NCBI GenBank assembly: GCA_019670725.1 | Contig: AP024629.1 | Span: 3,658,001-3,722,000, forward strand | Direction of reading: 5' to 3' | Source: Alphaproteobacteria bacterium SO-S41 | GTDB lineage: Bacteria; Pseudomonadota; Alphaproteobacteria; Micropepsales; Micropepsaceae | DNA length: 64,000 bases | Shown: in pieces, positions 1,157-30,941 of the stretch | Layout: each line of letters starts with the position of its first letter | How positions within the stretch are numbered: position 1 is the stretch's first letter | Program-made: the position numbers and the translations under genes | Notes under the pieces: generated by a model | Seen by the model: only the letters and a program-made list of their open reading frames with translations | What the model was told of the DNA's origin: nothing | The model's database searches: none

Positions 1157-2644
1157 CTATTCTTTGCCTTTAGGAAGGCGGGAAACCATCGAGATGCCGA
1201 TGTCCATGCCTTCCAGCTGGTAGTGCGGGACGAAGCGGAACTTGCCCTTGTAGTAGCCGGGGTTCTCTTCATCCGCGACGACTTCGATCGAGGCTTCGCG
1301 TAGCGGCTGCTGCGCCTTGGTCGCCTCGCTCGAACTCTCAGGCTGCTGATCCACATATTGCTGGACCCAGGAATTGAGGTCCCGCTCCAGCGACGCACTA
1401 TCGGCGTAACGGCCGATCCAGTCGCGGACCATGCATTTCAGGTAATGGGCGAAACGACAGCTCGCGAAGAGATAGGGCAGCCGCGCCGCCAGATTGGCGT
1501 TGGCGGTGGCGCCAGGATCTTCGTAGCGCTTGGGCTTCTGGGTCGACTGCGCACCGATGAAGGCCGCCGCATTGGTGTTCTTGCGGTGGATCAGCGGCAG
1601 GAGACCGGCAGCCGACAGCTCTGCCTCGCGGCGGTCGCTGATCGCGACTTCCGTGGGGCATTTCATATCGACCGAACCATCATCGGTCGGGAAAGTCGCG
1701 AAGGGCAGGTTCTCAACGAGGCCGCCGGACTGCACGCCGCGGATGCGCGAGCACCAGCCATAGTCCTTGAAGGAGCGGTTGATGTTGAGCGCCATCGCAT
1801 AGGCCGCGTTGTTCCACGCGTATTTCGTGGTGTCGCCGCTGCCCGAATCTTCCTCGAACGCGAACTCATCGACCGGCTCGCTCTTGGCGCCGTAGGGACG
1901 GCGCGAGAGGAAGCGCGGCATGGCGAGCGCGACGTATTTGGAATCTTCCGAGTCGCGATAGGCGCGCCATTCGGCGTAGTCGATCGTGTCGAACAACTTG
2001 CCGAGATCGCGCGGATTGACGATCTGCTGCCAGTTGTCCATGCCCATGAGCGAGGGACCGGCGGCCGCCAGGAACGGCGAGTGCGACGCGGCGGCGATCT
2101 TGGAGAGGCCGGCGAGAATGTCGACATCCGGCGGGGTGTGGTCGAAGAAATAGTCGCCCATCAGCGCGCCATAGGGCTGGCCGCCGAGCTGGCCGTATTC
2201 GGCCTCGTAGATCTTCTTGAAGAGCGGGCTCTGATCCCAGGCCTGGCCCTTGTACTGCTTGAACATCTTACCAAGCTCGTCCTTGGTGATGTTCATGACC
2301 TTGATCTTGAGGTCCTTGCCGGTCTCGGAATTGCCGACGAGATAGTCGAGACCGCGCCACGCGGATTCCAGCTTCTGGAATTCCTTGTTGTGGATGATCT
2401 GGTTGATCTGATCCGTCAGCTTGCGGTCGAGTTCGGCCTTGAGCTGGTCGATCGTGGCAAAGACGTCATTGCCGACGACCTTCGAATTCTCCAGCGCCTG
2501 CTGCGCCAGGGTGCGAACCGCCGCTTCGACACGCTCTTTCGCGCGGTCGGTCTTCGGCTTGAATTCCTTCTGCAGCAGCGAGGCGAACTCGTCACCGCTG
2601 AATGCGGTGGCTGCCTGGCCTTCTTCGCGTTGTGCTTCAGACAT
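1157..2644 (-). CDS. tssC: TssC, large subunit of the T6SS contractile sheath
   Basis: 495 residues, the normal length for TssC (VipB/ImpD). It interlocks with TssB to build the cytoplasmic sheath around the Hcp tube. Recognisable family landmarks are 'KLESAWRGLDYLV' (about 92-104), 'GDYFFDHTPPDVDIL' (about 163-177), the 'SRRPYG' segment and 'FRFVPHYQLEGMDIGISMVS' close to the C-terminus. The ATG at 2644 is preceded by AGGGGA. It starts 17 bp after tssB, so the two subunits are almost certainly co-transcribed, as in nearly all T6SS loci. The first residues are acidic and disordered-looking. Confidence 0.98.
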   Translation of the reverse strand: MSEAQREEGQAATAFSGDEFASLLQKEFKPKTDRAKERVEAAVRTLAQQALENSKVVGNDVFATIDQLKAELDRKLTDQINQIIHNKEFQKLESAWRGLDYLVGNSETGKDLKIKVMNITKDELGKMFKQYKGQAWDQSPLFKKIYEAEYGQLGGQPYGALMGDYFFDHTPPDVDILAGLSKIAAASHSPFLAAAGPSLMGMDNWQQIVNPRDLGKLFDTIDYAEWRAYRDSEDSKYVALAMPRFLSRRPYGAKSEPVDEFAFEEDSGSGDTTKYAWNNAAYAMALNINRSFKDYGWCSRIRGVQSGGLVENLPFATFPTDDGSVDMKCPTEVAISDRREAELSAAGLLPLIHRKNTNAAAFIGAQSTQKPKRYEDPGATANANLAARLPYLFASCRFAHYLKCMVRDWIGRYADSASLERDLNSWVQQYVDQQPESSSEATKAQQPLREASIEVVADEENPGYYKGKFRFVPHYQLEGMDIGISMVSRLPKGKE

Positions 2645-4527: not shown

Positions 4528-6459
4528 ATGTCGCAGACCCAAGACACCCGTTCCGCCCGGCTGACCACGCCCCTCGGCGGCGATGTCCTCGTCTTCCGTT
4601 CGATGACCGCCTATGAGCGGATCAGCCAGGCGTTCGAATTCCGCATCGTCGCCTTGACCGAAGAGGCGCTCGACAGACCGGCGGACCTGCTCGGCCAGGT
4701 GTGCGCCGTCGCCTATCACGGCAATGACGGGCCGATCCGCCATTTCCACGGCACCTGCGCGCAGGTCACCTTCGTCGGCACCGACACCGGCGGCGGCTTT
4801 CTCTATCAGCTCATCCTCCGGCCCGATTTCTGGTTCCTCTCGCGCAACCGCGACTACCGGGTGTTCCAGGACCTGTCCGTCGAGGAGATCATTTCCGAGG
4901 TGCTCAGCCGCAACGGCGTGACCAAGAAGGATCTCAATCTGGAGGCCGACTACCCCAAGCGCGAATACTGCGTGCAGTATGGGGAAAGCGACTTCGCCTT
5001 CCTGTCGCGCCTGATGGAGGAGGAAGGGATCTTCTACTTCTTCAAGCACGAGGCGAACGGCCACAAGCTGGTGATCGCGGACAGGTCATCGGTCCACGAC
5101 ACCGTGCCCGACTACGACACCGTGCCCTACTTTCCGCCGGGCAATACCGAGTCGCGGGAACGCGATCATCTCGACGAATGGTCGCTGCAGCATAATGTCG
5201 TGACCGCGAAGACCAAGTTCACCGGCTTCCATCTCGACGTCCCCACGCCGTTCGAGCACGTCGCGACCGGCGGCGGCGAGGGCGGCAGCGATAACGTCGA
5301 GATCCTCAACCACATCGACAATCATATTGCCGAGCATCCCAAGATGATGACGCTGTCGCAGCATCTCGCAGACGTCAGGCTGGATGCCGAGCGCGCGCTG
5401 CGCGTCGTCGCCACCGCGTCCGGCGATGCCATCGGCCTCGGAGCGGGCGCGAAGTTTACGCTGAGCGAGCATCCGATCGATGCCGACAATGCCGCGTATG
5501 TCATCGTCGAAGCGCGCCACCGGATTTCGAGCAATGCCTATCACTCAGGCGGCGGGGTGCATGGCGACGACCGGATCGACATCCTGGCGATCCCCGCCGC
5601 GACGACCTTCCGCAAGATGCAGGAGACCCCGCGGCCGCGCATTGTGGGCAGTCAGACTGCGCTGGTGACCGGGTCGGCCGGCGAGGAAATCGAGACCGAC
5701 AAATACGGCCGCGTCCGCGTGCTGTTCCATTGGGACACCCATGACCGCGGCCGCCGGCCGAGTTCGTGCTGGGTGCGCGTCGCGCAGATCATGGCGGGCA
5801 AGCAATGGGGCGCGGTGTTCACGCCGCGGATCGGGCAGGAGGTGCTGGTCGATTTCATCGGCGGCGATCCCGACCGGCCGATCATCACCGGCGTCGTCTA
5901 CAACGCCGAGCAGATGCCGCCCTATGAATTGCCCACGGAGAAGACCAAGTCGACGATGAAGACCGATTCATCGAAAGGCAGCGGCGGCTTCAACGAGCTT
6001 CGCTTCGAGGACAAGAAGGGCAAAGAAGAGCTCTACATGCATGCCCAGAAGGACATGAATATCATGGTCCTCAACAACCTCGACACGCAGGTGAAGAACG
6101 ACGAGACGCGGACGGTTTCGAACAACCGCACCACGGTGATCGACAAGGGTGACGAGAAGCTGACCCTCAAGATGGGTAATCGCGAAGAAGTCATCGAGAT
6201 GGGCAATGACAGCCTGAAGCTGAAGCTGGGCAACCAGACGACCAAGCTCGATCTCGGCAAGCAGGAAACCGAGGCGATGCAGTCGATCGAATTCAAGGTC
6301 GGCCAGAGCTCGATCAAGATCGACCAGACGGGCGTGACCATCAAGGGCATGATGATCAAGATCGACGGCACCATCTTCACCGAAGTGAAGGGCCTCATGA
6401 CGAAGGTCGAAGCCAGCGCGATCCTGATCGCGAAGGGCGGCCTCGTGATGATCAACTAG
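4528..6459 (+). CDS. vgrG: VgrG (TssI), T6SS spike protein
   Basis: 643 residues. Trimeric VgrG forms the spike at the tip of the Hcp tube and carries effectors. The N-terminal gp27-like region (to about residue 380) contains 'FRIVALTEEALDRPADLLGQ', 'YCVQYGESDFAFLSRLMEEEGIFYFF'. A gp5-type OB fold spans about 390-470 ('GRVRVLFHWDTHDRG', 'SCWVRVAQIMAGKQWGAVF', 'PRIGQEVLVDFIGGDPDRP'). A repetitive beta-helix needle follows to the C-terminus. There is no extra effector domain beyond the needle and no PAAR gene nearby. The ATG at 4528 has GGGAG about 12 nt upstream. It heads a plus-strand group of three genes. Confidence 0.98.
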   Translation: MSQTQDTRSARLTTPLGGDVLVFRSMTAYERISQAFEFRIVALTEEALDRPADLLGQVCAVAYHGNDGPIRHFHGTCAQVTFVGTDTGGGFLYQLILRPDFWFLSRNRDYRVFQDLSVEEIISEVLSRNGVTKKDLNLEADYPKREYCVQYGESDFAFLSRLMEEEGIFYFFKHEANGHKLVIADRSSVHDTVPDYDTVPYFPPGNTESRERDHLDEWSLQHNVVTAKTKFTGFHLDVPTPFEHVATGGGEGGSDNVEILNHIDNHIAEHPKMMTLSQHLADVRLDAERALRVVATASGDAIGLGAGAKFTLSEHPIDADNAAYVIVEARHRISSNAYHSGGGVHGDDRIDILAIPAATTFRKMQETPRPRIVGSQTALVTGSAGEEIETDKYGRVRVLFHWDTHDRGRRPSSCWVRVAQIMAGKQWGAVFTPRIGQEVLVDFIGGDPDRPIITGVVYNAEQMPPYELPTEKTKSTMKTDSSKGSGGFNELRFEDKKGKEELYMHAQKDMNIMVLNNLDTQVKNDETRTVSNNRTTVIDKGDEKLTLKMGNREEVIEMGNDSLKLKLGNQTTKLDLGKQETEAMQSIEFKVGQSSIKIDQTGVTIKGMMIKIDGTIFTEVKGLMTKVEASAILIAKGGLVMIN

Positions 6460-7089: not shown

Positions 7090-8316
7090 ATGCGCCTGAC
7101 GCTCAAGATCGAAAACCAGGATGCGCTGTCCAACGGACAGCCGCTGATCCAAGTCCTCGACCGCAAGGGACTGCAGATCGGCCGTGCCGCCGATGTCGAC
7201 TGGCAACTGCCCGATCCGCAGAAGCTGATCTCCTCGGTGCATGCCGAAATCCGCTTTCGCGACGGCGTCTTCACGCTGCGCGACAAGAGCCGCAACGGGA
7301 CGTTCCTGAACGGCGGACGCGTGGACAGCGCCAATCGTGAGGCGCGCGTCAATGACGGTGACCGGATCGCGATCGGCCATTACGAGATTTCCGCGCGGAT
7401 CGCGGGCGACGATGCGTCGCTCGTGCCGATCGAGCGTGGCGGCGATGCCGACAATGACGGCGACGTGTGGGGCGCCGCCGACTGGGGCGGCGTCGGGGCC
7501 GCGCCGGAACCCGTGGCCGAAACGGAAAACCGCACGCCCATGAATCGCGGCGCGAGCGCGATGGATCACGCCTTTGCCGCCCCCGCGGCGGTCAGCCATG
7601 CGCCCGCCGCTTCGGCCTGGGATTCCTGGGACAGTCCCGCACCAGCCGCGGCGCCGGCCTCGGCCCCCGCGCCGGCTCGTACCGTACCGGCGGCCGCGCC
7701 GGTTGCGGCCCCCGCAGCGGCGCCCGCCCCTGCCCCGGCCAGCTTTGGGGCCGACGAGGCCTCGCGCGCCATCGCCGCCTTCCTGCGCGGCGCCTCGCTG
7801 CCGGCCGATGTCGCGCTGGATGCGCGGGCAATGGAGGAGGCCGGGCGCACATTCCGCGTGCTCGTACATGGGCTATTCGATCTGTTGAAGCGCCAGAGCG
7901 AAATGAAATCGGTGTTGGGTCTGGAGCGCACCGTCATCCGCCTCGCCGACAACAACACGCTGAAATTCTCGGCCAGCGGCGATGAAGCGCTGCAGCGGCT
8001 GATGACGCCGCGCGAAGGCGACCTGCCCGGCCCCGCCGCGGGCCTGCGCTCGTTCGACGATGTGCGCCGCCACGAAGAGCGGCTGCTGACCGCCATGAAC
8101 GAGGCGGTGAAGAGCATCGTCGAGCGGCTGTCGCCGCAGGAGATCAAGCGCCGCGAGACCGGCGGCGTGATGGGCAAGCTGATCCCGAATTCCAGCAAGG
8201 CCTCGTGGTGGGACGAGCTGGAGCGCGAGCACGCGCGGCTGCTGGAATCCGACAGCGCCAAGCTGGATGAGCTGATCGAGGACGAACTGCGCGAGGCGTT
8301 CGGCCGGCACCTCTAG
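7090..8316 (+). CDS. tagH: TagH, FHA-domain T6SS regulator (Fha)
   Basis: 408 residues in three parts. An N-terminal FHA domain (about 1-105) retains the phosphothreonine-binding residues G31-R32, S49-S50-x-H52 region and N69-G70-T71. A low-complexity Ala/Pro linker spans about 160-220. The C-terminal conserved T6SS FHA-associated domain (about 222-408) includes 'FRVLVHGLFDLLKRQSEMKSVLGLERTVI' and 'DNNTLKFS'. In Pseudomonas and Agrobacterium, FHA proteins of this type bind phosphorylated partners and promote T6SS assembly. Here the likely partners are the kinase convergent with it and TssL. The gene is third after vgrG and converges with ppkA, with 18 bp between stops. Confidence 0.94.
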   Translation: MRLTLKIENQDALSNGQPLIQVLDRKGLQIGRAADVDWQLPDPQKLISSVHAEIRFRDGVFTLRDKSRNGTFLNGGRVDSANREARVNDGDRIAIGHYEISARIAGDDASLVPIERGGDADNDGDVWGAADWGGVGAAPEPVAETENRTPMNRGASAMDHAFAAPAAVSHAPAASAWDSWDSPAPAAAPASAPAPARTVPAAAPVAAPAAAPAPAPASFGADEASRAIAAFLRGASLPADVALDARAMEEAGRTFRVLVHGLFDLLKRQSEMKSVLGLERTVIRLADNNTLKFSASGDEALQRLMTPREGDLPGPAAGLRSFDDVRRHEERLLTAMNEAVKSIVERLSPQEIKRRETGGVMGKLIPNSSKASWWDELEREHARLLESDSAKLDELIEDELREAFGRHL

Positions 8317-8334: not shown

Positions 8335-11300
8335 TCAGGGGGGGGCCTGGATATACTCCGCCGCATCGACCCGCAATTTGGTTGCGCCCGCCGCGGTTCC
8401 GACCGCCGCGATCCACGCCTTGAGACCGGTAACGCCGCTGAAGCCGAATGCGTCCGCGGGCAGCGGGTCGCTGGTCATCACCGTCACCAGAAGCTGCGAG
8501 CCGGAGTCCGCCGCCTTGGAATAGGGCGGCAATAACAGGCGATAGCGTCCGCCGCCGTCATCGAGCACTACGCCCTGCCCGATCCGCTGCGCCAGCTTCG
8601 CGGCATCGGTCAGCTCGATCAGCGAACGGACCTGGCCGCCGGCGTCGATCAGCAGGACGTAGAAATGCGGGAAGGCAGGGTCGAGCGTGAGCGCGGCTTC
8701 AGACGTCCGGTCTGGCTTGCCGGTTGGTTTGGGCTTGGCGACGCTTTGCGCCGCGCCGGCGACGAACCAGGGATCGAGGCCGTTGAGCGCCGCGCAGTGA
8801 CGGGCGGCGATCGCTTCGCCCTTCAGCACGAAAGGGAAACCGGCCTCGGCCGCGGAGGCGTCGGCCGCTTCCTGGACCGCGTCGGTCTTGCCCCAGATGC
8901 CGTTGACGGCGGCCTCCTTCGGCGCACCGGCGGGGCCACTGAGCGAGATGAAGCTGCAATCGACGGCGGTGAAGCGGTCGCGGATCGCCTGGCTGATCGC
9001 GCCGCCGCCGGAGGGTGGCGGAGGCGGCGGGGATGGGGCCGCAGCGGGCACGCCGAGGCGCTCGACGACGTCGAACGAGACCGCATCCTTGGGCAGCGCC
9101 GCGATGGCGCCGAGCCAGGCGTCGAGCGGCATCTGCTTCTCGGCAGCGGCTGACGCCGGGAGCGGCGAGGCAGCGGAGACGGTGAGGAGAAGCGAGGCAT
9201 CCACATTGGCGGTGTCGCTGGGCGGCCGCAGCTTCACCTTGAAGGTGCCGCCGGGCGCGTCCTCGACAATCCCCGACGCCTTGGCGCGGGCGATCGCCTC
9301 GGGCGAAGAGAGATCGGCGAGCGTTGCGACGAGGCCGCTGCGATCGGCTTCCAGCAGGTAGACCGCACCGGCGCCGGGACGCGGCGCGACGACGACGGTG
9401 GTGGTGCGGTCGGGCGCAGCCGGCGGCACGGGCGGCGCGAGAACCGGTGCGCCGAGTTCAGCGGCGGTCTTCCGGATCGTATTCAGCGCCGGGCAAAGCG
9501 CGCCGTCGATGATGTCGCCGGACACGGTGATCGCCGCGCCCGTTTCCGCCGCGGCCTCGGAGACCGCGGCCTGGACGGCGCCGGCGTCCTGCCACACCCC
9601 GTTGACGCCGAACGAGAAGGGCGGACCGCCCTCGGCCGCATCGAGCCGCACGAGATTGCAGCTGACCGCATCGAGCTTGGCGCGGATCGCGGTTTCAATC
9701 TTGGCGAGAAGCTGCGCGGGCGTTTCGCCGGTGGGCGGCGGAGGCGGTGGCGGCGGTGGTGGCGTATCGACGAAGGGTGCGACGCCGTCACGCGGCATCA
9801 GGTCGACGGCGACGCGGTCGCTGCCGGATGAGACGGTTGCCACCCAGTCCTTCAATGCCATCGGCCGCGGCACGGCGCTGAGCGGTACGGCGCTGGTGAC
9901 GGCGATCAGCAGGGTCTGGTCCGTGTTGGCATCGGGACCGGTGGGCGTCAGGCGGATTTCATAATCGCCGTTCGCCAGCGTCGTCAGGCCGGCAATCGCC
10001 GCACGCGAGGCGGGCGTGCTGAGATCAAGCACCTGAACGATCTGTCCGGCGGCATTGGCCTCCAGCAGATAGAAGGTCCACGCGCCGTGTCCGGCCTTGG
10101 CCTGCAGCACGACGGAGCGATCGGCGCCACCGGCGAGGTTCGGCCGCGTCAGGCGGGAGATGTCGGGCTGGCGGGCCAGCGGCTTCACCTGATCGACCAC
10201 CGTGCAAAGCGGCGCATCGAAGGTTTCGCCCTTGAGCGAGGCGGTCGAGCCGGTCGTCTTCGCGATCTCGTCGGTCACGCGGCGCACCGCCGCCTCGTCG
10301 CGCCAGATGCCGTCGACCGCGACCTTGAACGCCGTGCCGTCATCCGCGCCGTCGACACGCGCCACGGTGCAGGCCGTCGCGGCGATGCCGGAACGATAGG
10401 CGCGGACCGTCTCGGCGAGTTGCTCGGGACGCGATTTCTCGACCGGCGGGGTGACTGGCGGTTCGGTGGGGCCTGACGGACCCGATGGACCGGCGGGCGG
10501 TTGCGGCGGGGTCGAACCCGGTCCCGGGGTGGGCGTGACGCCGTCTTTCGGTTTGCCGAAAATATCGTCCTCAAAATACATGAGGCCGCCAGCCGCACCG
10601 CCGCCGATCAGCAGCGCGAGCAGAACCGAGACGAGGCCACCGCCACCGCGGCGCTTCGCCTTTTCCTTCACCGGTGCGCGTTCCTCGCGCTTGATGCCGG
10701 ACTTCACCGCCGGCTTGGCGGTTTCCTTGAGCGGGAGCGTCGGGTTCGCGACCACTGGCCCGCGCTCGGCGGCATCGAGCAGCGCAATGACCTCGCGCAT
10801 CGATTGCGGCCGGTCCGGCGGGTGCGGTTCGAGCATCCGCTGCAGGGTGGAAACCAGCGATACGGGAACGTCGGGCAGTTCGGGAATGCCGCGCCGCGCT
10901 TCCTGCGCCGCGCCGACGGTGCGGCCGAGCGGGATCGACTTGCCGCGCGAGGCCGCCGCGAGGACCAGAGCGAGGCTGTAGATATCGGTGAAGGGACCGA
11001 TACGTGCGCCGCGCACGAATTGTTCCGGCGCGGCGTAGCTGAGCTTGCCGACGAATTGCGCGTCCGGCATGTCCTCCATGTCGCCGATCTTGGCGATACC
11101 GAAATCGATCAGCGTCGCCTTGTCGAGCTGGCTCTGCGGCAGCAGGACATTGTCGGGCGAGACGTCGCGGTGGACGAGGCCTTCGTCATGCGCGGACTGC
11201 AGCCCCGCGGCGAGGCGGCGGCCGAGCGCGAAGAGCTCCGGCTCGGTCAGCTTGCGGCGGGCATAGAAGTCGCCGAGCGTTTCGCCGTCGATGAATTCCA

Positions 11301-11841
11301 GAACGAGATAGAACGGGCCGGTGTCGCCGATGCGGCCATAGGTGCGATAGGGCACGACGGCATCATGGCGCACGCGCATCAGCGCGTTGGCCTCGTCGAG
11401 CAACATCTTGCCGAAGCGCTCGTCGGCGCCGGGCTCGGGCAGGATGGTCTTGATCGCGACGCGTTCGGCGGCGTTGTGGACGTTGACGCCGGTATAGATC
11501 GCGCCGAGGCCGCCGCGGGCGATGAGATTGCCGACGCGGTAATTGCCCAGCACCGTATTCGGCGCGAGATCGCCGGGCGGCGGCGGCGCGGGCGGTGGGC
11601 TCGCGACCTCATCCCAGACGGCTGTACTGGGCGGGGGCGTCGCGCCGGCGGGCGGCGGCGGGAACGGGGCGTTGATGATCTGGGTGCGTTCGTCGTCCGG
11701 CACCTGGATGATGCGGGTGCGCTCGTCCTCTTCCGGCCATGCGGCGGCGGGATCATTCGGCTGAGGCCGCGACGCGCCATTGGGCACGATCAGGGTCGTG
11801 TCTTCCGGTTCGTCATCGGTGTTGTCGGGACCGCCGCTCAC
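8335..11841 (-). CDS. ppkA: PpkA-type T6SS Ser/Thr kinase with triplicated periplasmic domain
   Basis: 1168 residues from a GTG start at 11841, 13 bp after pppA; a GAGGGG lies about 10 nt upstream. The N-terminus (1-95) is acidic and Pro-rich with repeated DERT-x-II motifs (T42, T53). The kinase domain is at about 100-358, with the glycine loop at about 109, K131 in VAIK, HRD at 224-226, N231 and DFG at 246-248. The catalytic-loop lysine is replaced by Ser (HRDVSPDN). A Lys/Arg-rich juxtamembrane stretch and one membrane span (about 403-422) follow. The periplasmic region holds three tandem units (about 472-690, 707-930, 947-1164), each with a cysteine pair (491/546, 728/783, 962/1016), joined by poly-Pro linkers. 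Confidence 0.93.
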   Translation of the reverse strand: MSGGPDNTDDEPEDTTLIVPNGASRPQPNDPAAAWPEEDERTRIIQVPDDERTQIINAPFPPPPAGATPPPSTAVWDEVASPPPAPPPPGDLAPNTVLGNYRVGNLIARGGLGAIYTGVNVHNAAERVAIKTILPEPGADERFGKMLLDEANALMRVRHDAVVPYRTYGRIGDTGPFYLVLEFIDGETLGDFYARRKLTEPELFALGRRLAAGLQSAHDEGLVHRDVSPDNVLLPQSQLDKATLIDFGIAKIGDMEDMPDAQFVGKLSYAAPEQFVRGARIGPFTDIYSLALVLAAASRGKSIPLGRTVGAAQEARRGIPELPDVPVSLVSTLQRMLEPHPPDRPQSMREVIALLDAAERGPVVANPTLPLKETAKPAVKSGIKREERAPVKEKAKRRGGGGLVSVLLALLIGGGAAGGLMYFEDDIFGKPKDGVTPTPGPGSTPPQPPAGPSGPSGPTEPPVTPPVEKSRPEQLAETVRAYRSGIAATACTVARVDGADDGTAFKVAVDGIWRDEAAVRRVTDEIAKTTGSTASLKGETFDAPLCTVVDQVKPLARQPDISRLTRPNLAGGADRSVVLQAKAGHGAWTFYLLEANAAGQIVQVLDLSTPASRAAIAGLTTLANGDYEIRLTPTGPDANTDQTLLIAVTSAVPLSAVPRPMALKDWVATVSSGSDRVAVDLMPRDGVAPFVDTPPPPPPPPPPTGETPAQLLAKIETAIRAKLDAVSCNLVRLDAAEGGPPFSFGVNGVWQDAGAVQAAVSEAAAETGAAITVSGDIIDGALCPALNTIRKTAAELGAPVLAPPVPPAAPDRTTTVVVAPRPGAGAVYLLEADRSGLVATLADLSSPEAIARAKASGIVEDAPGGTFKVKLRPPSDTANVDASLLLTVSAASPLPASAAAEKQMPLDAWLGAIAALPKDAVSFDVVERLGVPAAAPSPPPPPPSGGGAISQAIRDRFTAVDCSFISLSGPAGAPKEAAVNGIWGKTDAVQEAADASAAEAGFPFVLKGEAIAARHCAALNGLDPWFVAGAAQSVAKPKPTGKPDRTSEAALTLDPAFPHFYVLLIDAGGQVRSLIELTDAAKLAQRIGQGVVLDDGGGRYRLLLPPYSKAADSGSQLLVTVMTSDPLPADAFGFSGVTGLKAWIAAVGTAAGATKLRVDAAEYIQAPP

Positions 11842-11854
11842 GCCTTCATGCCCC

Positions 11855-12616
11855 TCAGGCCAGAGTCTTTTCGTCGTCGTCGAGTTCGACCGCGGTCACC
11901 TCGTCGCAGATGACCGTGATGATGCTGACATTGTCGGGCGCGCCGCGTTCGAGGCACAGCTCGACGAGCCGCGCACAGGCGCGCAGGCCGCCGAAGTCGC
12001 GCAGCGTATCGCGAATGTCCTCATCGGTGGCGCAGGCCGTGAGGCCGTCGCTGCAGATCAGGATGATGTCGTCGGGCGCGAGATCGATGCTCTTCAGTTC
12101 CAGGCGGACGCGCGGATCGACGCCGACGGCGCGGGTGAGGACGTGGCCCATCGGGTGATGTTTCGCCTGCTCCAACGTGATCTGGCTGGTGTCGAGCAGA
12201 TAGCGGACCTGGGTGTGGTCGCGCGTCAGCTGCTGCAGGCCGCCGTCGCGGAAGAGATAGACGCGGCTGTCGCCGATCCAGAAGCAGACCGCGTGCGTGC
12301 CGTTGGCGTAGAGCGCGGCGACGGTCGTGCCGATGGTCGCGCCTTCGACGCTGGCGCGCTGATAGACCATCGAATTGGCGGCGATGATGGCGTGGTGAAC
12401 CTGCGAGACGTCCTCGTCATACTCGCCGCTGATCATGATGCCGGCGAGATTGCGGGTGACCGCGTCGCTGGCGAAGCGGCCGTGCTGATGACCGCCCATG
12501 CCGTCAGCCACCACCCAGAGATGGCCGGAGGGATGAACCGCGAGCGAGTCCTCGTTCTCGCGCCGCCGCAAGCCCGGATGGGTTTCATGCGAGGTGCGGA
12601 ACTTCAAATTCCTCAT
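11855..12616 (-). CDS. pppA: PppA, PP2C-family phosphatase of the T6SS
   Basis: 253 residues with the PP2C metal-dependent phosphatase motifs in order: 'RRRENEDSL' (about 18-25), 'VVADGMGGHQHG' (about 35-46), 'WIGDSRVYLF' (about 111-120), 'ICSDGLT' (about 185-191) and 'GAPDNVSIITV' near the C-terminus. In other T6SSs PppA dephosphorylates the substrates of PpkA and shuts assembly down. It has no membrane segment, so it acts in the cytoplasm. The gene lies between tagF and ppkA with gaps of 15 and 13 bp, so kinase and phosphatase are very likely made from one message. Confidence 0.96.
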   Translation of the reverse strand: MRNLKFRTSHETHPGLRRRENEDSLAVHPSGHLWVVADGMGGHQHGRFASDAVTRNLAGIMISGEYDEDVSQVHHAIIAANSMVYQRASVEGATIGTTVAALYANGTHAVCFWIGDSRVYLFRDGGLQQLTRDHTQVRYLLDTSQITLEQAKHHPMGHVLTRAVGVDPRVRLELKSIDLAPDDIILICSDGLTACATDEDIRDTLRDFGGLRACARLVELCLERGAPDNVSIITVICDEVTAVELDDDEKTLA

Positions 12617-12631: not shown

Positions 12632-13441
12632 TCAGGCCGCGTCTGCGGGCGCATCGAGCGATGCGGCCGGCGTGGGGGTGATGTCATGATTACTCTCGTC
12701 ATTCTGCGGCGCCACGGGTTCGGCCGACGGCTGGGCACCGTCGGCTTCGAGCACTGCTTCGGCGTCTTCATAGGGATGCGGATCGGCGAAGGTCTCGGCG
12801 ACGGGGGCACGGCGGAACAATTGCGCCAGTGTCTCGCCCGAGAGCGCGCCTTCGAGCTTGAGCTGCGTCGTGTCGCCCGCCACCCACCAGAGCGACTGGG
12901 CGCCCCAAGGGGCCGATTCCATATGGCGCAGCATGTCGCCGGCGAAAATGGCGATCGGGTCGCCCTTGGCGGCCGCATCGGCACCGAACGCGCGGGCCGC
13001 AATATCGGCGAGACCGCCAAGCACGGTATCGACGCTGAGCGCGTCCAGCAGCGCGCTGCGGGCGAGCGCCTCGGCTTCGTCGAGCGCGGCAGCGGTCGCT
13101 TCGGGGCGCGCGAGCAGCGCGAGGGTCGGCGCGGCGAAACCGGCGAGCAGCGGGAACTGCCGCCCCACCGCATCGACGGAAGGAATGAAGACGCCGGTCA
13201 GCCAGTCGCGGCCGAGCGCGCCGGGGGTCGCGAGGAAGCGCCACACGGGTGTTTCGACATAGACGTCGTCCCACTGCATGTCCCAATGCGCGGACGCGGC
13301 GGCGATCGCCTCCGCAACCGCACAATCGCCCGCCTCGACGGTTTCGTCGTCGAGGCCGCGGCTGATGAAATCGCCATGCGCCGGCATCTTGCCGAAGAGC
13401 CAGGGCGCGGCGGGAACTTCGCCTACAAAGCCGGCGGACAT
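12632..13441 (-). CDS. tagF: TagF, T6SS post-translational regulator
   Basis: 269 residues from the ATG at 13441. An in-frame extension upstream would read through tssM sequence and lacks family similarity. The family signature 'FGKMPAHGDFISRG' is at about residues 16-29. Typical segments follow: 'YVETPVWRF', 'PGALGRDWLTGVFIPSVDAVGRQFPL' and a late 'SLWWVAGD'. TagF proteins repress T6SS activity independently of phosphorylation in Pseudomonas; in some alphaproteobacteria TagF is fused to PppA. Here TagF and PppA are separate adjacent genes. The start overlaps the tssM stop by 19 bp. The last 50 residues are acidic and poorly conserved. Confidence 0.94.
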   Translation of the reverse strand: MSAGFVGEVPAAPWLFGKMPAHGDFISRGLDDETVEAGDCAVAEAIAAASAHWDMQWDDVYVETPVWRFLATPGALGRDWLTGVFIPSVDAVGRQFPLLAGFAAPTLALLARPEATAAALDEAEALARSALLDALSVDTVLGGLADIAARAFGADAAAKGDPIAIFAGDMLRHMESAPWGAQSLWWVAGDTTQLKLEGALSGETLAQLFRRAPVAETFADPHPYEDAEAVLEADGAQPSAEPVAPQNDESNHDITPTPAASLDAPADAA

Positions 13442-16400
13442 TTCAACTTCCAAAGCTTGGTCTTGTCGAACGGATCGCCCGACGCGGGCGCGCCCGGCAC
13501 GGTGATGTTGATGGTGACGGCGAGATCGTCCTCGCCGAACGTGTAGTTGCGGGTCTTCGCGGTGCAGGGCTGGCACTTGCCCTGGTCGAGCAGGCGGAAG
13601 ATGCCCCACGGACCCGGCGTCTGAAGCGTGAAGGGCGGGATGGCCGTATCCTTGGGCGTGATCGTCAACAGCGCGCCGTCGGTGCCGACCATCGAGGGCG
13701 TCCAGTCGAAGTCGCCATAGGCGGCCTTGGTGGAGAGGTCCGCCGTCTGGAGCGAGCCGAGATTGAGCCGCACCGAACCGACGCCCGGCCCGACCGAGAC
13801 GGTCACGACATGGAAGGGAAAGCCGAGCGCGCCCTGCGAGAAGCGCGAGAGATAGGTCGCCTTCCAGATATTGTCGGCCAGTTGCAGCGCCGCGACGTTC
13901 GAGGCCGACATGGTCTGCGCGACGGGATCGCCGGGCTTCGGCCGCCAGGTCTTGCCGGTGCGGTCGATATATGGCGCGAGCTGGTTATCGAGGAACAGGT
14001 TGATCGTGCCGGCCGGACCGAATGCGCCCTGATATTGCAGCACCGTGATGTCAGGCGCGTCGAGCTTGGCGAAGGGATAGAGCTTCAGCGCGGCGCGGCA
14101 GGCGGGCACGACATTGTCGGCATAGGCCTTGGTGATCGCGCTGCGCGACTGCGACGTCGCGGTGTCGCCAGCGGAATCGGTGAGGCTGCCGCCGATATTG
14201 GCGGCATCGCCCGGCATGGACTGCACGGCGGCCTTCAGCTCGGCAACCGCCTGCGCGAGGGCGTCGCCGCCCCCTCCGCCACCACCTCCGCCTCCGCCTC
14301 CGCCGCCCCCACCACCGCCACCACCGCCGTCCTGCATGGCGTTGCGGACTTTCTCGAGCGCGGCTTCGAGGCGCTGGATTTCACCGGGGGCGTCGCCGAC
14401 GCCATTGACGTAGAGCGCGAGCTCGCCGAAGCGCTGGGTGATGATAACGCCGGCCTGGCCGGCCGCGGCGGCCTGCTGGTCGGCGGGGACGAGGCTCGTC
14501 TCCTTCACGACCGCGCCGAGGAAGGTGGTGATAGGCTGGGGCTTGCGCGTCAGTTCGACGGCCTGGGTGACGCCTTTCAGTTCCAGCGGCGAGACCGCGC
14601 CGAGGACCTGAATCCACTTGTCGATATAGGCGTTGGAATAGGTCGTCGCGAGTGCCCGCTTCAGCACCGGCGCCTGCACTTCCACCGCCGCCTGCTTGCC
14701 GGCTTCGCCGAGTACCCATTGCTCGTCCTGGATACGCGCGAGGACGTCGTTGCTGAACTTGACGTAGATCGTCTCGTAGCCCTGCTTGGTATAGAGGAAG
14801 GGCACGGTGACGGCGCCGAGGTCGTTGGAGAACGCCTTCTGCTGCACGGCGAGCATCTGATCGCGCAGCACCCATTCCGGCTGGCCGGCGCCTTCGGCTT
14901 CCATCGCGGTGAGCGCGCGATCCTCAAGCGAGCGGCCGGCGAGCGTTTCCTGCGCCGACTTGATGAGGTCCCAATCGACCGCGGGGTCCTTCTCGTCGGA
15001 ACCCGGCGTGCGGGACTGAATTTTCGCGACGGCGTCGAGATAGTCGGACGGGCTTTCCATCAGCGCGTCGAGATGGGCGGTGAGACGCTCGCGCAGGTCC
15101 TTGTTTTCATCGCCGGGGAAATCGGCGGTGGTCCACTGACGGATGAACCAGGCGCGCACGCCTGCGGGATCGCGCAGGCCCGAGGCGGTGACGCCGTCGG
15201 GCGTGCCGCCGACCTGGAGATAGACGCGCAGCGCTTCGTAGAGTTTGCGCCAGTCGCCTTCCTGCTCCGCCGCGACACCCGACTCGGCGCGCAGGATGAG
15301 GCGCGGCAGCAGCATGTGCTCCAGCCCTTGGCGATAGGCGGCGACCGCGGCGACGTTCAGCGCCTTCACCTGGCCGAGACCGAGATCGCCGAGCCCGAAG
15401 CCGCTCTGCGCCGCGCTGTCGGCATAGCCGCCGGGCAGCGCGCGCAACTGGTCGAGCAGTGGGACGATGTCGCCCATCTTGCTGTCGTCGGCCTTCACCT
15501 TGACGAGATCGACGCCCGACTTGGCGCGTGTCTCGACATAGGGATCGACCGCGGCGGAGAGACGGTTCTGCGTATCGGTATTGCGCTGATAGGCGAGGAA
15601 CCAGAGCGCGACCATGCCGGCGGTCAGAGCGCCGAAGAGAATCAGGCCGAAAAAGAGGAAGGTCCGCCGCCGCGCGCGCACACCGGGATCGGCGGTGACG
15701 AGGCCGGCCTCGGGGAACATCACGTCCTGCAGCAGGCGCTGGAGGAAATAGGCACGGCCGCCGGCCGCGCCCTTGCCGCGCCGCGCGGGGGCGACGCGGG
15801 CGGGCGCCATCACGCCGAGCAGGCGGTCGATGGCGGCGCCGGTCTGCGTACCGCTGGTGAGATAGAAGCCGCGAAAGACAGGCGTGGGCTCCAGCGGCCG
15901 GTTCTCGAACATCTCGCCGAAGAAGGTTGCGAGGCGCACGCGCGCCTCGGCAAGCTGGGTGGGGAAGCCCAGCACCTTGGAGCGGCGCTGCGAATCCGCC
16001 TCGCCCTGAAGGCGGCCCGGCGTGCGCTCGGTCAGCGCCTTCACCGCGAGGTCGAACTCCTCCAGCAGCGGCTCGACCTGCAGAGCCTTGGCGCCTTCCC
16101 ATTTCCACGTCGCGCCCAGCACTTCGCGGCGGCCGTCGGCGGAGAGATCGTCGAAGAACTCGACAAAACCGGGCACCTGGTCGGCCTTGGTTAGCCAGAC
16201 ATAGACGGGCAGCCGGACGCCCAATTCCTTGTGCAGTTCATTGAGGCGGCGGCGGACGATGCCGGCATGGCGCTTCAACTCGTCCGCCGTCGCATTCATC
16301 AAAAGGTCAAAGCCGAAGGCGACCATGACGCCGTTCAGCGGCTGGGCCGGGCGGTTCTTGCGCAGCAGCGCAAGGAAGGAGAACCAGCCCTTGCGGTCCT

Positions 16401-16968
16401 TCTCGGCGTCGGAATCCTGCGTCGTGTAGCGGCCAGCGGTGTCGACGAGGATGGCGTCGTCGGTGAACCACCAGTCGCAATTACGCGTGCCGCCGACGCC
16501 GGCCAGCGCCTGCGCGTTGCCGTCGTCGGAGACGAGGAATTTGAGGCCGGAATTGACGAGCGCCGTCGTCTTGCCGGTGCCCGGCGGGCCGATGATCATG
16601 TACCAGGGGCGCGAGTAGAGATAGTCGCCCTTCTTCGACTTCGCGCCCATGCGGCGCAGTGTGCCGAGCGCTTCGTTGAGGCGCTTGGCGAGAACCTGTG
16701 CTTCCTTCGGGCCTTCGTCGGAACTCGCGAGACCTTCCTGCAGCGCCTTGCTGGCGCGCCGCGCGCGCAGCCAGGAGAAGAGCATGATGAGCAGGAAGAT
16801 GAGGACGACACCGCCGATCAGCGCGAGGCGGACCCATTCATCCTGCAACGGCGCATAGCCTGACATTTCCAGCAGCGGGCCGGCATACCAGATGAGGACG
16901 CCGATCAGGACGACGGCCGACGCACCGATGGCGAAGCGTCCGAGCAGGCTTGTGAGCAACGACTGCAT
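13423..16968 (-). CDS. tssM: TssM (IcmF), inner-membrane T6SS core protein
   Basis: 1181 residues, the usual size. Two membrane spans are at about 12-30 and 46-66, followed by a cytoplasmic NTPase-like domain with Walker A GPPGTGKT (127-134), 'ILVDTAGRY' (about 173-181) and 'TKAD' (260-263). A third span is at about 436-460, then the large periplasmic domain. With TssL it forms the envelope-spanning complex; in Agrobacterium the Walker A is functional. No TssJ lipoprotein gene is visible. Residues 881-901 are 21 consecutive glycines in the periplasmic part, which is highly unusual for this family. It overlaps tagF by 19 bp and follows tssL by 7 bp. Confidence 0.97.
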   Translation of the reverse strand: MQSLLTSLLGRFAIGASAVVLIGVLIWYAGPLLEMSGYAPLQDEWVRLALIGGVVLIFLLIMLFSWLRARRASKALQEGLASSDEGPKEAQVLAKRLNEALGTLRRMGAKSKKGDYLYSRPWYMIIGPPGTGKTTALVNSGLKFLVSDDGNAQALAGVGGTRNCDWWFTDDAILVDTAGRYTTQDSDAEKDRKGWFSFLALLRKNRPAQPLNGVMVAFGFDLLMNATADELKRHAGIVRRRLNELHKELGVRLPVYVWLTKADQVPGFVEFFDDLSADGRREVLGATWKWEGAKALQVEPLLEEFDLAVKALTERTPGRLQGEADSQRRSKVLGFPTQLAEARVRLATFFGEMFENRPLEPTPVFRGFYLTSGTQTGAAIDRLLGVMAPARVAPARRGKGAAGGRAYFLQRLLQDVMFPEAGLVTADPGVRARRRTFLFFGLILFGALTAGMVALWFLAYQRNTDTQNRLSAAVDPYVETRAKSGVDLVKVKADDSKMGDIVPLLDQLRALPGGYADSAAQSGFGLGDLGLGQVKALNVAAVAAYRQGLEHMLLPRLILRAESGVAAEQEGDWRKLYEALRVYLQVGGTPDGVTASGLRDPAGVRAWFIRQWTTADFPGDENKDLRERLTAHLDALMESPSDYLDAVAKIQSRTPGSDEKDPAVDWDLIKSAQETLAGRSLEDRALTAMEAEGAGQPEWVLRDQMLAVQQKAFSNDLGAVTVPFLYTKQGYETIYVKFSNDVLARIQDEQWVLGEAGKQAAVEVQAPVLKRALATTYSNAYIDKWIQVLGAVSPLELKGVTQAVELTRKPQPITTFLGAVVKETSLVPADQQAAAAGQAGVIITQRFGELALYVNGVGDAPGEIQRLEAALEKVRNAMQDGGGGGGGGGGGGGGGGGGGGGDALAQAVAELKAAVQSMPGDAANIGGSLTDSAGDTATSQSRSAITKAYADNVVPACRAALKLYPFAKLDAPDITVLQYQGAFGPAGTINLFLDNQLAPYIDRTGKTWRPKPGDPVAQTMSASNVAALQLADNIWKATYLSRFSQGALGFPFHVVTVSVGPGVGSVRLNLGSLQTADLSTKAAYGDFDWTPSMVGTDGALLTITPKDTAIPPFTLQTPGPWGIFRLLDQGKCQPCTAKTRNYTFGEDDLAVTINITVPGAPASGDPFDKTKLWKLKCPPAL
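14266..14328 (-). repeat. Poly-glycine codon tract within tssM
   Basis: Sixty-three bases encode 21 consecutive Gly residues (881-901 of TssM), flanked by Asp on both sides. All four Gly codons occur, with runs of GGC/GGT and GGC/GGA alternation on the coding strand. The tract is therefore not a pure trinucleotide repeat, but it is close to one and could vary in length by slippage. It lies in the periplasmic half of the protein. Confidence 0.97.
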
Positions 16969-16975
16969 GACCGCC

Positions 16976-18409
16976 CTATTCGCCTTCGCGCAGCGGCACG
17001 AAAATTTCGATGCGCCGGTTCAGCGCCTTGGACGCCTTGTCGGTCTTGGTCGTCACCGGCTCGCGATCGCCGCGGCCTTCGGTGACGATGCGAGTGGGAT
17101 CCTTGAGATGCGAGCTGAGTTCCTTCGCCGCCGAGACGGCCCGCGCTTCCGAGAGCGCCTGGTTGTCGGGGAACTTGATTGTCTTGGAGAGCTTGTCGGT
17201 GTCGGTGTGGCCGACGACCGTGATCTTGCAGACTTCCGGGTCCAGCGCCGCGGCAATGGCGCCGACGAATTTCAGATAGTCGGGATCGAGCTGGTCGGAG
17301 CCCGACTGGAAGAGGCCGCCGATCCGCGTGGTGATGCGGATGCGGGCATCCATGCCCTCGACGACGACGTCGCCGGCGGCGATCTCGGCCTGGAGCTTGG
17401 TGCGGATGCGATCGAGACGGGTGGAAGTGATTTCCGGCGGCTTGGTCACCGGCGGCGGCGTGCTGCGCTCGATGACGACGCCGGCCGCGGGGTCGTGCAG
17501 ATCGAGCAGGCGCGCGCTGACGGCGTCGGTGCGGTCGGCGAGCGTGAAGAGGAAGAAGGCAAAGGCGCCGAGCAGGATGCAGGCGCAGAGCGCCGCGAAG
17601 GCGAGAAGCGGCGCGGTGAGGCCGATGCGGCGGATCGGGGCTGAGATGCCCTTCCAGTGCGGCGCGATCGGCTCGCCCGTCTTGGGGATGGCGCGCGCGA
17701 GCTCAGCATGCATCGCGGCCATGCGGTCGGAGAGACCGCGGTCCTGACGCCCGGTGAGACGGTATTTGCCGAGGAAGCCCGCGGCGACGCAGGCGTGGAA
17801 GAGCTCCAGCAGTTCGTCCTTGCCGGACGGACGGCGGAGCAGTTCATCCACGGTCGCCCAGAAGCGGTCGCCGCCGATATTCTCGTTGAAGATATGGACG
17901 ACCATCGAGCGGCGCGCCCATTCGAACCCCTGCGTCTGCGGGATGTTCTGCATGACATCATCGACGGTCGCGGCGATCGCGTAGGTCGCGTGATCGACGG
18001 TCTCGTTGTCGTAGCCGATGTCGATGATCGTATCCTTGTAGGCGGCGATCGCCTCGACCATCTCGGCATGGAATTGCGGCGCGGTAACCGGCATCTGGCC
18101 GGTGCGCATGCCCGCGAGGCGCACGAGAATGCGCGAGGCGAGCCAGACCAGCGGATTGCGCACGCTGAGCGGCGGTAGCTGGGTCTCGGGTTCGATATCC
18201 GGCGCCAGTCCCTTCGGCATCTGCGCGGCGAGCGGCGGCGGGGCGGCGGCGTGAACCGCATCGTCCTCGACCGCCCCGGCCTGGGGCAGCGGTTGCTCCG
18301 CCGCGGCCGGCGGCTGCTGCGGCAGAGCCTGCGCGCGCCTGATCTGCGACAGGGGCGACTGCCGGACGACGATCGTGCGCTCGCGGTCCTTGCCGCCGTT
18401 GTCGCTCAT
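16976..18409 (-). CDS. tssL: TssL (DotU) with C-terminal OmpA-like domain
   Basis: 477 residues from the ATG at 18409, which overlaps the tssK stop as ATGA. A longer upstream reading is rejected because the family context and coupling fit this start. The order is: a disordered N-terminus with R11-T12-I-V-V, a Pro-rich stretch, a DotU domain (about 82-250, 'NPLVWLASRILVRLAGMR', 'NIGGDRFWATVDELL', 'GFLGKYRLTG'), one membrane span (about 265-288) and a periplasmic OmpA-like peptidoglycan-binding domain (about 345-475, 'VVGHTDTDKL', 'EARAVSAAKEL'). In Agrobacterium PpkA phosphorylates an N-terminal Thr of TssL, which is then bound by Fha. T12 here is the obvious equivalent candidate. Confidence 0.97.
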   Translation of the reverse strand: MSDNGGKDRERTIVVRQSPLSQIRRAQALPQQPPAAAEQPLPQAGAVEDDAVHAAAPPPLAAQMPKGLAPDIEPETQLPPLSVRNPLVWLASRILVRLAGMRTGQMPVTAPQFHAEMVEAIAAYKDTIIDIGYDNETVDHATYAIAATVDDVMQNIPQTQGFEWARRSMVVHIFNENIGGDRFWATVDELLRRPSGKDELLELFHACVAAGFLGKYRLTGRQDRGLSDRMAAMHAELARAIPKTGEPIAPHWKGISAPIRRIGLTAPLLAFAALCACILLGAFAFFLFTLADRTDAVSARLLDLHDPAAGVVIERSTPPPVTKPPEITSTRLDRIRTKLQAEIAAGDVVVEGMDARIRITTRIGGLFQSGSDQLDPDYLKFVGAIAAALDPEVCKITVVGHTDTDKLSKTIKFPDNQALSEARAVSAAKELSSHLKDPTRIVTEGRGDREPVTTKTDKASKALNRRIEIFVPLREGE

Positions 18410-19749
18410 GGACCGCTCCGCTTGACCGCCCAGGCCTCCAGCTTCAGCTCGGGCCAGTCGCCTGCGACGGCGAAGCCCATGGCCGGCGCGGTGGAGGCGA
18501 TATCGCGCCATTCCGGTCCGCTCTGGTCGAACTGGAAATAGGTCAGCTCGTGGAAGGCCGGCATTTGCGGCGGCAGCGTCGTGACATGCCGGATCGCGAT
18601 GCCGCCGACCGCGGCGCGGACCAGTTCGCGCATCTGGGTGACCGAGCCGATCTTGATCTGCGCCGGAAAGCGGTCGGCGATCTCCTTGGGCGGACGGCGC
18701 GCCGATACGGCGAGGAAGATGGTCGCGGTGCGGAAGAGATTGCGGTCGCGGATCGGGCAGATATAGGCGCCGGGCTGCGGCATCTCGAGATCGAGCTGCA
18801 CGGCGGCCTGCGAGAACTGGATCGAGAAGGCGGCGATCAGGAAGTCGATGACCGGCGCGAAGCAGCGGCGGAGATCGAGGTGATCGTAGTCGGGAAAGAC
18901 GGGCGGACGGCGGGCGGTCGTCGAGAAGGTGGACATCTCGCCCGCGACCTGCAGCAGCATCGCATAGAGCGTCTCGGGGTGATGGCCCGCGCAGGTGCGC
19001 ATATGCTTGAAGAGCGGCGTCCAGCGGTTCAGCGCCTGGAGCATCAGGAAGCTGGTCAGCGTTTCGGTGCCGGCCTCGATCTTGGCGACGGCACGCTTGG
19101 CCAGTTCGTCGGCGCGGGCCGCAGCGCGGCCGCCGATATCGTCGACGATCCCCGACAGCGCGGTATGCGCCTCCAGCGTCAGGCTGGAGGGGATGTAGGT
19201 GCGGTCGAGCACGACGAGCTGGTCGCGGCGCTCCAGGATGCGGGCGAGGCTGACCAGGACGCGGCCGTCGGTCTGCTCCTTAGAGAGGCCGAGGCGCAGA
19301 TTGGGTTGGCCGGTCTCGATCGCTTCGGCATTGCGGCTTTCCGAGAAGGCGTCGATCGCCTCCTGTTCTGCGACCGAATAGCGCACGGCGCCGGTAACGG
19401 TCGCGGCGCGGACATATTCCAGAGCGCCCGGCTGGCGGGGCGGCAGGGTCAGATAGACGACGGCGCTGCGGGCATCGCCGGGGATATCGATGGGCGGCGG
19501 CAGGTCGGCGTCGGCGGGGGCGTTGATGACTGTTCCGTCCGGCATCACGGCGCTGACCGCCAGCAGGCCGAACTTGCCGACCGCGAGCAGATCCTCGTTG
19601 ATCACCAGCTCGGTAATGCCCCAGGCATGCGGCCGGAGCGGCATGGTGCGGCGCTCCAGGACGCTTTCAAGATAGCGCTCCTGCTGCTGGAAATGCTGCG
19701 GGCGGAGAAACATCCCCTCCGACCATGCGACTCGCCGCGAAGACGTCAT
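18406..19749 (-). CDS. tssK: TssK, T6SS baseplate-to-membrane adaptor
   Basis: 447 residues from the ATG at 19749. The start MTSSRRVAWSEGMFLRPQHF is the standard TssK opening ('W-EGMFL-PQHFQ'); the longer in-frame reading lacks homology. TssK trimers link the baseplate to the TssL/TssM membrane complex. Family features include 'HAWGITELVINEDLLAVGKFGLLAVSAVMPDGT', 'LLQVAGEMSTFS' near 270 and 'YICPIRDRNLFRTATIFLAV' near 340. It is the first gene of the tssK-L-M-tagF-pppA-ppkA group. The 207-bp gap upstream separates it from the divergent polysaccharide cluster and must hold promoters for both. Confidence 0.97.
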   Translation of the reverse strand: MTSSRRVAWSEGMFLRPQHFQQQERYLESVLERRTMPLRPHAWGITELVINEDLLAVGKFGLLAVSAVMPDGTVINAPADADLPPPIDIPGDARSAVVYLTLPPRQPGALEYVRAATVTGAVRYSVAEQEAIDAFSESRNAEAIETGQPNLRLGLSKEQTDGRVLVSLARILERRDQLVVLDRTYIPSSLTLEAHTALSGIVDDIGGRAAARADELAKRAVAKIEAGTETLTSFLMLQALNRWTPLFKHMRTCAGHHPETLYAMLLQVAGEMSTFSTTARRPPVFPDYDHLDLRRCFAPVIDFLIAAFSIQFSQAAVQLDLEMPQPGAYICPIRDRNLFRTATIFLAVSARRPPKEIADRFPAQIKIGSVTQMRELVRAAVGGIAIRHVTTLPPQMPAFHELTYFQFDQSGPEWRDIASTAPAMGFAVAGDWPELKLEAWAVKRSGP

Positions 19750-19956
19750 ACTCGATCGTCCGCCCCAATCCTGCCGCCAGCCGGCACCCGCACGCAGACT
19801 ACGCCAAGCCCGCGCCATGGCAAACCAAAGGGACGTGCCGCGCATGGGACGTTTTGGCTCAGGTCAGTCCCCAGCGGCGCGCAGTTGACCCGGAGCCCCG
19901 GGCGCGGCATCTGGGCGCCATGGACCGGAACTCGCCTACAGGATTGGCGGCGGCGC

Positions 19957-21318: not shown

Positions 21319-21323
21319 CGGCC

Positions 21324-22292: not shown

Positions 22293-22299
22293 GGCCGGG

Positions 22300-23565: not shown

Positions 23566-23598
23566 GACCCTCAGCAAACGGCTACCGGACGCGCCGCG

Positions 23599-24801: not shown

Positions 24802-24811
24802 CGGCTGACCG

Positions 24812-26164: not shown

Positions 26165-26174
26165 TGATCCGCCG

Positions 26175-28840: not shown

Positions 28841-28996
28841 ACGCCCGCGGAAATGCCCCAATTCGGCCACGGCGCGCCGCGAGACAGGGCCATCCGCAAG
28901 CTTGGCGCGGGCGACGACAATCTGTATCTTCCCGCAGGTGCGAAGCCCGACCCGGTACGGCGGTTCTGAGCGCAGTTCAAAGGTCGACAACGCGAG

Positions 28997-30277: not shown

Positions 30278-30287
30278 TCGCCGCCAC

Positions 30288-30938: not shown

Positions 30939-30941
30939 CGC

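Follow-up and report, generated by a model that had tools for sequence, protein, structure and literature searches.

For a few bacteria only, the periplasmic activators of type VI secretion system (T6SS) kinases are known (TagQRST, RtkS, and TssW). In the window analyzed here, the whole 64,000-nucleotide stretch of DNA from Alphaproteobacteria bacterium SO-S41, a putative T6SS kinase carries a long tail with regularly spaced cysteine pairs. What is this tail made of, is its architecture particular to this kinase, and what may it do for secretion?

The kinase and its T6SS neighborhood

The gene ppkA (8335..11841, - strand) encodes a T6SS Hanks-type Ser/Thr kinase of 1168 aa (Pkinase PF00069, 96 bits), with the translated ORF running from a GTG start at 11841 to a stop at 8335. 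It lies at the end of a run in the order tssK-tssL-tssM-tagF-pppA-ppkA, which includes tssK (18406..19845, -; TIGR03353, 404 bits), tssL with an OmpA domain (16976..18511, -; PF09850 and PF00691), tssM (13423..16968, -; TIGR03348, 798 bits), tagF (12632..13441, -; PF09867, 102 bits; putative start at the ATG preceding SAGFVGEVP), and the PP2C phosphatase gene pppA (11855..12616, -; PF13672, 61.6 bits), the end of which is 13 bases from the downstream ppkA. The opposed tagH/fha (7090..8316, +; TIGR03354, 249 bits) is convergent with ppkA, and vgrG/tssI (4528..6459, +; TIGR03361, 552 bits) and tssC (1157..2644, -; TIGR03355, 655 bits) lie beyond. By its gene content, this locus is assigned to the PpkA/PppA/TagH threonine-phosphorylation pathway of the T6SS. 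The PF00069 match, the catalytic motifs, and the linkage to pppA, tagF, tagH, and tss genes bear out the PpkA-like T6SS kinase proposed in the first-pass annotation.

The kinase domain occupies residues 101-346 (10804..11541, -), with VAIK at 128, HRD at 224, DFG at 246, and APE at 271. Kyte-Doolittle hydropathy gives one strong hydrophobic segment, a predicted transmembrane helix at about residues 403-421 (10579..10635, -; maximum 2.12), followed by a Pro-rich linker at residues 422-475 (10417..10578, -; 29% Pro). Because the kinase would be cytoplasmic and there is one transmembrane helix, the C-terminal tail with its repeats is expected to be periplasmic. The N-terminal tail (residues 13-57; 11671..11805, -) contains three acidic-T-x-x-[I/V] sites (EDTTLIV, DERTRII, and DERTQII), and this pattern has eight overlapping matches there, a count reached by none of 2000 shuffles. 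In Agrobacterium, PpkA phosphorylates TssL at Thr14, which then binds Fha (PMC3953482). The N-terminal sites of PpkA and the DRERTIVV site at the N-terminus of TssL look like candidate phospho-Thr docking sites for the FHA domain of TagH. Several further T6SS kinases have comparable acidic-T sites in their N-terminal tails.

Several other features were observed in this genome. TssM (13423-16968, -) has a long glycine run in its C-terminal half, and a polysaccharide export/glycosyltransferase cluster (KpsE-like plus several glycosyltransferases; 18550-32801 of the window) adjoins the T6SS genes. The genome also has two more kinases fused behind TIR domains (L002, 979-3927 +; L003, 1-3153 -), with catalytic domains 42-46% identical; one has a RodZ_C match and the other a weak MORN match.

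Three copies of a two-part module

The predicted periplasmic half of PpkA consists of three homologous units of about 220 aa that can be aligned over their whole length. For pairwise alignment, the units were cut at residues 463-692 (U1), 708-935 (U2), and 947-1168 (U3), and 500 shuffles were run per pair. The local alignment scores were 287 for U1-U2 (z 36), 269 for U2-U3 (z 30), and 162 for U1-U3 (z 23), compared to shuffle averages of 36-42 over all pairs. HMM X placed its three domains at residues 476-689 (U1; 9775..10416, -; domain 1, 274 bits), 713-933 (U2; 9043..9705, -; domain 2, 283 bits), and 948-1168 (U3; 8338..9000, -; domain 3, 319 bits). Proline runs form the linkers, with Pro10 between U1 and U2 (residues 694-703; 9733..9762, -) and Pro6 between U2 and U3 (residues 938-943; 9013..9030, -). 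The identity between units is 25-32% for protein and 46-51% for DNA. An assembly duplicate as the source of the tripling is ruled out by this DNA identity and the single-contig genome; the three units thus represent a genuine, old repeat rather than a product of recent or assembly duplication.

PpkA has exactly six cysteines, with one pair in each unit (491/546 in U1, 728/783 in U2, and 962/1016 in U3) and none elsewhere in the protein. U1 and U2 retain both cysteines, the tryptophan, and the conserved glycines. The tryptophan core reads VDGIW, VNGVW, and VNGIW in U1, U2, and U3; the second strand reads FYLLEA, VYLLEA, and FYVLLI; and a later strand reads LLIAVTS, LLLTVSA, and LLVTVMT. The first-pass annotation had described three copies of one unit, with these cysteine positions and proline-rich joins, and all of this agrees with our results. 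Its strand and core motifs are also present, although their wording was slightly loose.

For the fold, AlphaFold2 models based on an input alignment of four sequences had mean pLDDT values of 81.7 for U3 and 80.9 for U2. Both models have the same order of elements, namely, α-β-β-α-β-α followed by a β-rich half that includes a late helix; in the U3 model, the first half comprises H5-13, E17-25, E30-37, H40-54, and E58-64, and the order in U2 is identical. The alternative that the three segments are unrelated folds does not hold for these two of the three units, which share a predicted fold. The first halves match the αββαβ topology of the BON domain (PMC7806268). No window unit reaches the Pfam gathering cut-off for BON (PF04972) or DUF4384 (PF14326), and the search of Pfam/NCBIfam gave nothing above cut-off by which the units could be named. 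We therefore use the terms “BON-like” and “DUF4384-like,” which are based on profile comparison and predicted topology. In these terms, the U2 and U3 models predict, for these two units, a BON-like αββαβα half joined to a DUF4384-like β-sandwich half.

Comparisons with known structures gave few leads. The resemblance of the second half to an Ig-like β-sandwich is weak and under the reliable level of the tool (VIA Z ≤7.3, rmsd 3.5 over 116 residues). The Foldseek/VIA searches with the unit models were dominated by antibody-like and ribosomal chains, none with E <0.001. The first half of U2 matched the C-terminal domains of MamM/MamB (Z 7.3), but the αββαβ arrangement is common, so this match was discarded and no function was taken from it. 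In the PDB, the matches of the window profile (a titin fragment, E 0.009; a phage baseplate protein, E 1.4) were judged to be chance. With the profile of the relatives, we found 4qo6/4qq0 (“Adenylate cyclase-like protein”; E 1.8e-4 for the whole chain, with single stretches weak) and OsmY (E 0.75), which are suggestive and point to BON only.

Single modules in congeners and other Alphaproteobacteria

Among the four other genomes of the genus, three have the unit, once each and in the same gene place. The single unit comes after 155 aa of Pro-rich linker in G003 (L007/L015) and after 179 aa in G004 (L009), compared to 55 aa before the first unit of the window kinase. In G002 (L008), one unit was found in a sequence that is cut at the contig start, so further upstream units are possible. 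In G001 (L025, about 8554-10522), pppA lies directly next to tagH, and no ppkA separates them. In the phylogenetic tree, U3 groups with the single units of the congeners (support 100/100; 98/96 with outgroups) and U1 groups with U2, both on long branches. Moreover, U3 is 65% identical to the G003 unit and only 25-32% identical to U1/U2. These patterns indicate that U3 is the orthologue of the congeners' single unit, with U1 and U2 as divergent additional copies. The duplications may be older than the genus, with losses elsewhere, or a later duplication may have been followed by rapid divergence of U1 and U2.

Among the genomes and kinases examined, the tripling was seen only in this genome. 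When the window-type profile was run against 385 genomes of the class, three copies were present in the window genome only, with one borderline match elsewhere; with a profile of the wider module family, none of 289 genomes had more than one match. A plasmid search with the window tail found no match.

That the unit is a special sensor of the window kinase, as the first-pass annotation would have it, is not supported, since many alphaproteobacterial genera have T6SS kinases with a single unit at that position. These wider relatives came to light among kinases encoded next to pppA or tagH in further T6SS loci. One Cys-pair unit each, with cysteines 52-60 residues apart, is present in about 15 additional T6SS-type kinases. 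Those in annotated T6SS loci are from Azospirillum oryzae, A. lipoferum, A. ramasamyi, Qingshengfaniella, Mesorhizobium, Rhodovulum, Thioclava, Paracoccus, Sphingomonas, and Tritonibacter; all have exactly one cysteine pair in the tail, and their loci show a tssM/tagF/pppA/ppkA or tagH-ppkA layout. Several of these kinases (A. oryzae WP_149199234.1, A. lipoferum WP_014249741.1, Rhodovulum WP_080618242.1, and Mesorhizobium WP_024504490.1) share the kinase-transmembrane-linker-module order and the T6SS neighborhood of the window kinase, but have one module instead of three. The module family also includes members from G390, G109, G189, G288, and G243, plus one from G335 that is fused to an apparent protease. 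The T6SS kinases of G316, G091, and G410 and one Rhizobium kinase have no periplasmic cysteine. The G005 kinase (L031) was rejected as a member, with a profile match that is not significant and a different cysteine pattern.

For some of these relatives, the Pfam names apply directly. The DUF4384 cut-off is passed by the modules of L072, L086, L087, and L093, and the same-position modules in L072, L087, and Azospirillum score 31-47 bits. The BON cut-off is passed by L095, and the G243 T6SS kinase scores 33 bits against the 27-bit cut-off. The comparison of the window/congener set with the wider family by hhalign gave a probability of 95% (E 3.7e-8) in an alignment of 197 columns that pairs both cysteines. 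The real score was 58.4, while 299 of 300 column-shuffled controls scored ≤19.3 and one shuffle scored an anomalous 135.8 over 43 columns, which was treated as an artefact. With the caveat of this one shuffle, the result argues for homology between the window units and the wider family over both halves. In HMMER, a foreign-unit HMM matched U1 at 24.4 bits and the window HMM matched L093 at 27.6 bits; U2 and U3 alone were much weaker, so the link to the wider family rests on the set. The tails from Sphingomonas, Mesorhizobium, and rhodobacterial kinases have weaker profile scores to the window units than the Azospirillum-type modules. In a joint alignment of the 15 kinases and the three window units, the two cysteines are the only fully conserved columns; because the sequences were trimmed at a fixed distance before the first cysteine, only the second cysteine column is a free test. 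The Cys-pair module is ordinary for alphaproteobacterial PpkA, and only its tripling is unusual.

Two relatives have other arrangements. The Qingshengfaniella T6SS kinase (L105, 1543-3633 +) seems by eye to have two more Cys-less BON-like stretches before its Cys-pair domain, which may be another route to multiple copies of part of the module. In L093 (1453-3504 -), the Cys-pair and DUF4384 module is fused to what its motifs suggest is a papain-like protease.

Possible roles of the triplicated tail

The reading that we consider fairly probable is that the window PpkA has a standard periplasmic input or tether module in triplicate. In PpkA, a single transmembrane helix would connect the cytoplasmic kinase to a periplasmic tail of three modules. 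In each module, a BON-like αββαβα domain, probably stapled by one structural disulfide, would precede a DUF4384-like β-sandwich. Most likely, the kinase receives its envelope-side input, or is tethered, through this tail. The tail would bind a partner on the periplasmic side, such as an outer-membrane or peptidoglycan-associated protein or the periplasmic parts of TssM/TssL, and this binding would set the place and time of kinase clustering, autophosphorylation, and TagH/TssL phosphorylation, which PppA would reverse. U1 and U2, the extra and faster-diverging modules, occupy the position of the congeners' Pro-rich linker and so probably alter reach and/or avidity for the partner, while U3 would keep the ancestral role. 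A bolder version, which we put forward tentatively and with less confidence, is that the module serves as the periplasmic input domain in T6SS kinases throughout the Alphaproteobacteria and that its tripling here makes a multivalent, avidity-tuned trigger of secretion.

Other readings differ in what the modules, or the extra copies, would do. U1 and U2 could be spacers that replace the Pro-rich linker of the congeners across the periplasm, leaving the binding to the terminal U3. The closeness of U3 to the G003 unit, the long branches of U1/U2, and the shorter linker in the window kinase all fit such spacers, but both cysteines, the tryptophan, and the conserved glycines are kept in U1/U2, U2 is predicted by AlphaFold2 to fold as well as U3, and linkers of only 20-31 aa occur in Sphingomonas, Paracoccus, and Thioclava, which makes this rather doubtful. 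The extra copies could also be functionally neutral, the tripling being a neutral or transient duplication without functional effect. We regard this as unlikely: the congeners with sequence lack the tripling and the copies have strongly diverged, which speaks for such an event, yet the open frame, both cysteines, and the core residues are kept in all three copies at only about 30% identity, which implies long maintenance.

Two further candidate functions concern sensing. The BON-like halves might make direct contact with anionic phospholipid and so detect a disturbed or curved membrane, given that BON2 of DolP binds PG/cardiolipin (PMC7806268) and that a BON profile scores above its cut-off in the G243 T6SS kinase. 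However, BON1 of DolP showed no lipid interaction and BON domains are not considered general lipid binders by the same authors, and DolP binds lipid through a tryptophan in helix 1 of BON2 (PMC7806268), whereas the first helices of the window units have no tryptophan; lipid sensing thus seems very unlikely. More improbable again is a redox-switch or small-ligand-sensing function of each unit through its cysteine pair, although the pair is invariant across the units and their relatives. The units have no CxxC motif and no match to a known ligand-binding family, and the cysteine spacing varies among relatives. Invariant paired cysteines in an oxidising compartment, with no other cysteine in the protein, are the usual sign of a structural disulfide. 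Since the pair is the only invariant feature of the alignment and the kinase has no other cysteine, structural disulfides are likelier than redox switches, and the ligand- or redox-sensing role first suggested for the module, for which we found no ligand-binding or redox evidence, is the less fitting one.

The window kinase has parallels in better-studied kinases. In tandem-repeat form, the PASTA-repeat kinases (PknB/Stk1) also combine a kinase with a repeated extracytoplasmic tail. Their repeat is unrelated to the window units by Pfam/NCBIfam, and only the kinase part matches. Among T6SS kinases, P. aeruginosa PpkA/TagQRST and Serratia PpkA/RtkS likewise have a periplasmic input tail and act via Fha phosphorylation. 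TagR of P. aeruginosa and RtkS of Serratia act on the periplasmic part of PpkA, and the periplasmic domains of these two PpkA proteins differ from each other (PMC6082577); TssW of Acidovorax also acts on the periplasmic part of PpkA (PMC12607579). These T6SS cases are the precedents for a periplasmic PpkA tail that serves as input, and the input or tether reading of the window tail is drawn by analogy with them.

In the literature searched (mostly without subscription journals), we found no description of the Cys-pair module in T6SS kinases; DUF4384 occurred alongside “kinase” only in work on caspase homologues, and the texts with a BON domain, type VI secretion, and a kinase mentioned the BON domain once each. 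The tripled form is thus a variant of a widespread and apparently undescribed architecture. An unnamed module with two invariant cysteines, common to many alphaproteobacterial T6SS kinases, provides a defined domain that is testable as an input, and the triplicated PpkA tail provides a natural experiment on module copy number. The same two-part module is also found beside T6SS genes in proteins of the DUF4384 (PF14326) type that have a preceding Cys-pair BON-like domain, such as Leisingera WP_260033787.1, which differ in having a single module, no Pfam kinase match, and nearby ExbB/ExbD and caspase-family genes. The Leisingera gene (L100, 5104-6684 +) is part of an island that also holds ExbB/ExbD, caspase-family, and OmpA genes and adjoins tssA-tssB-tssC.
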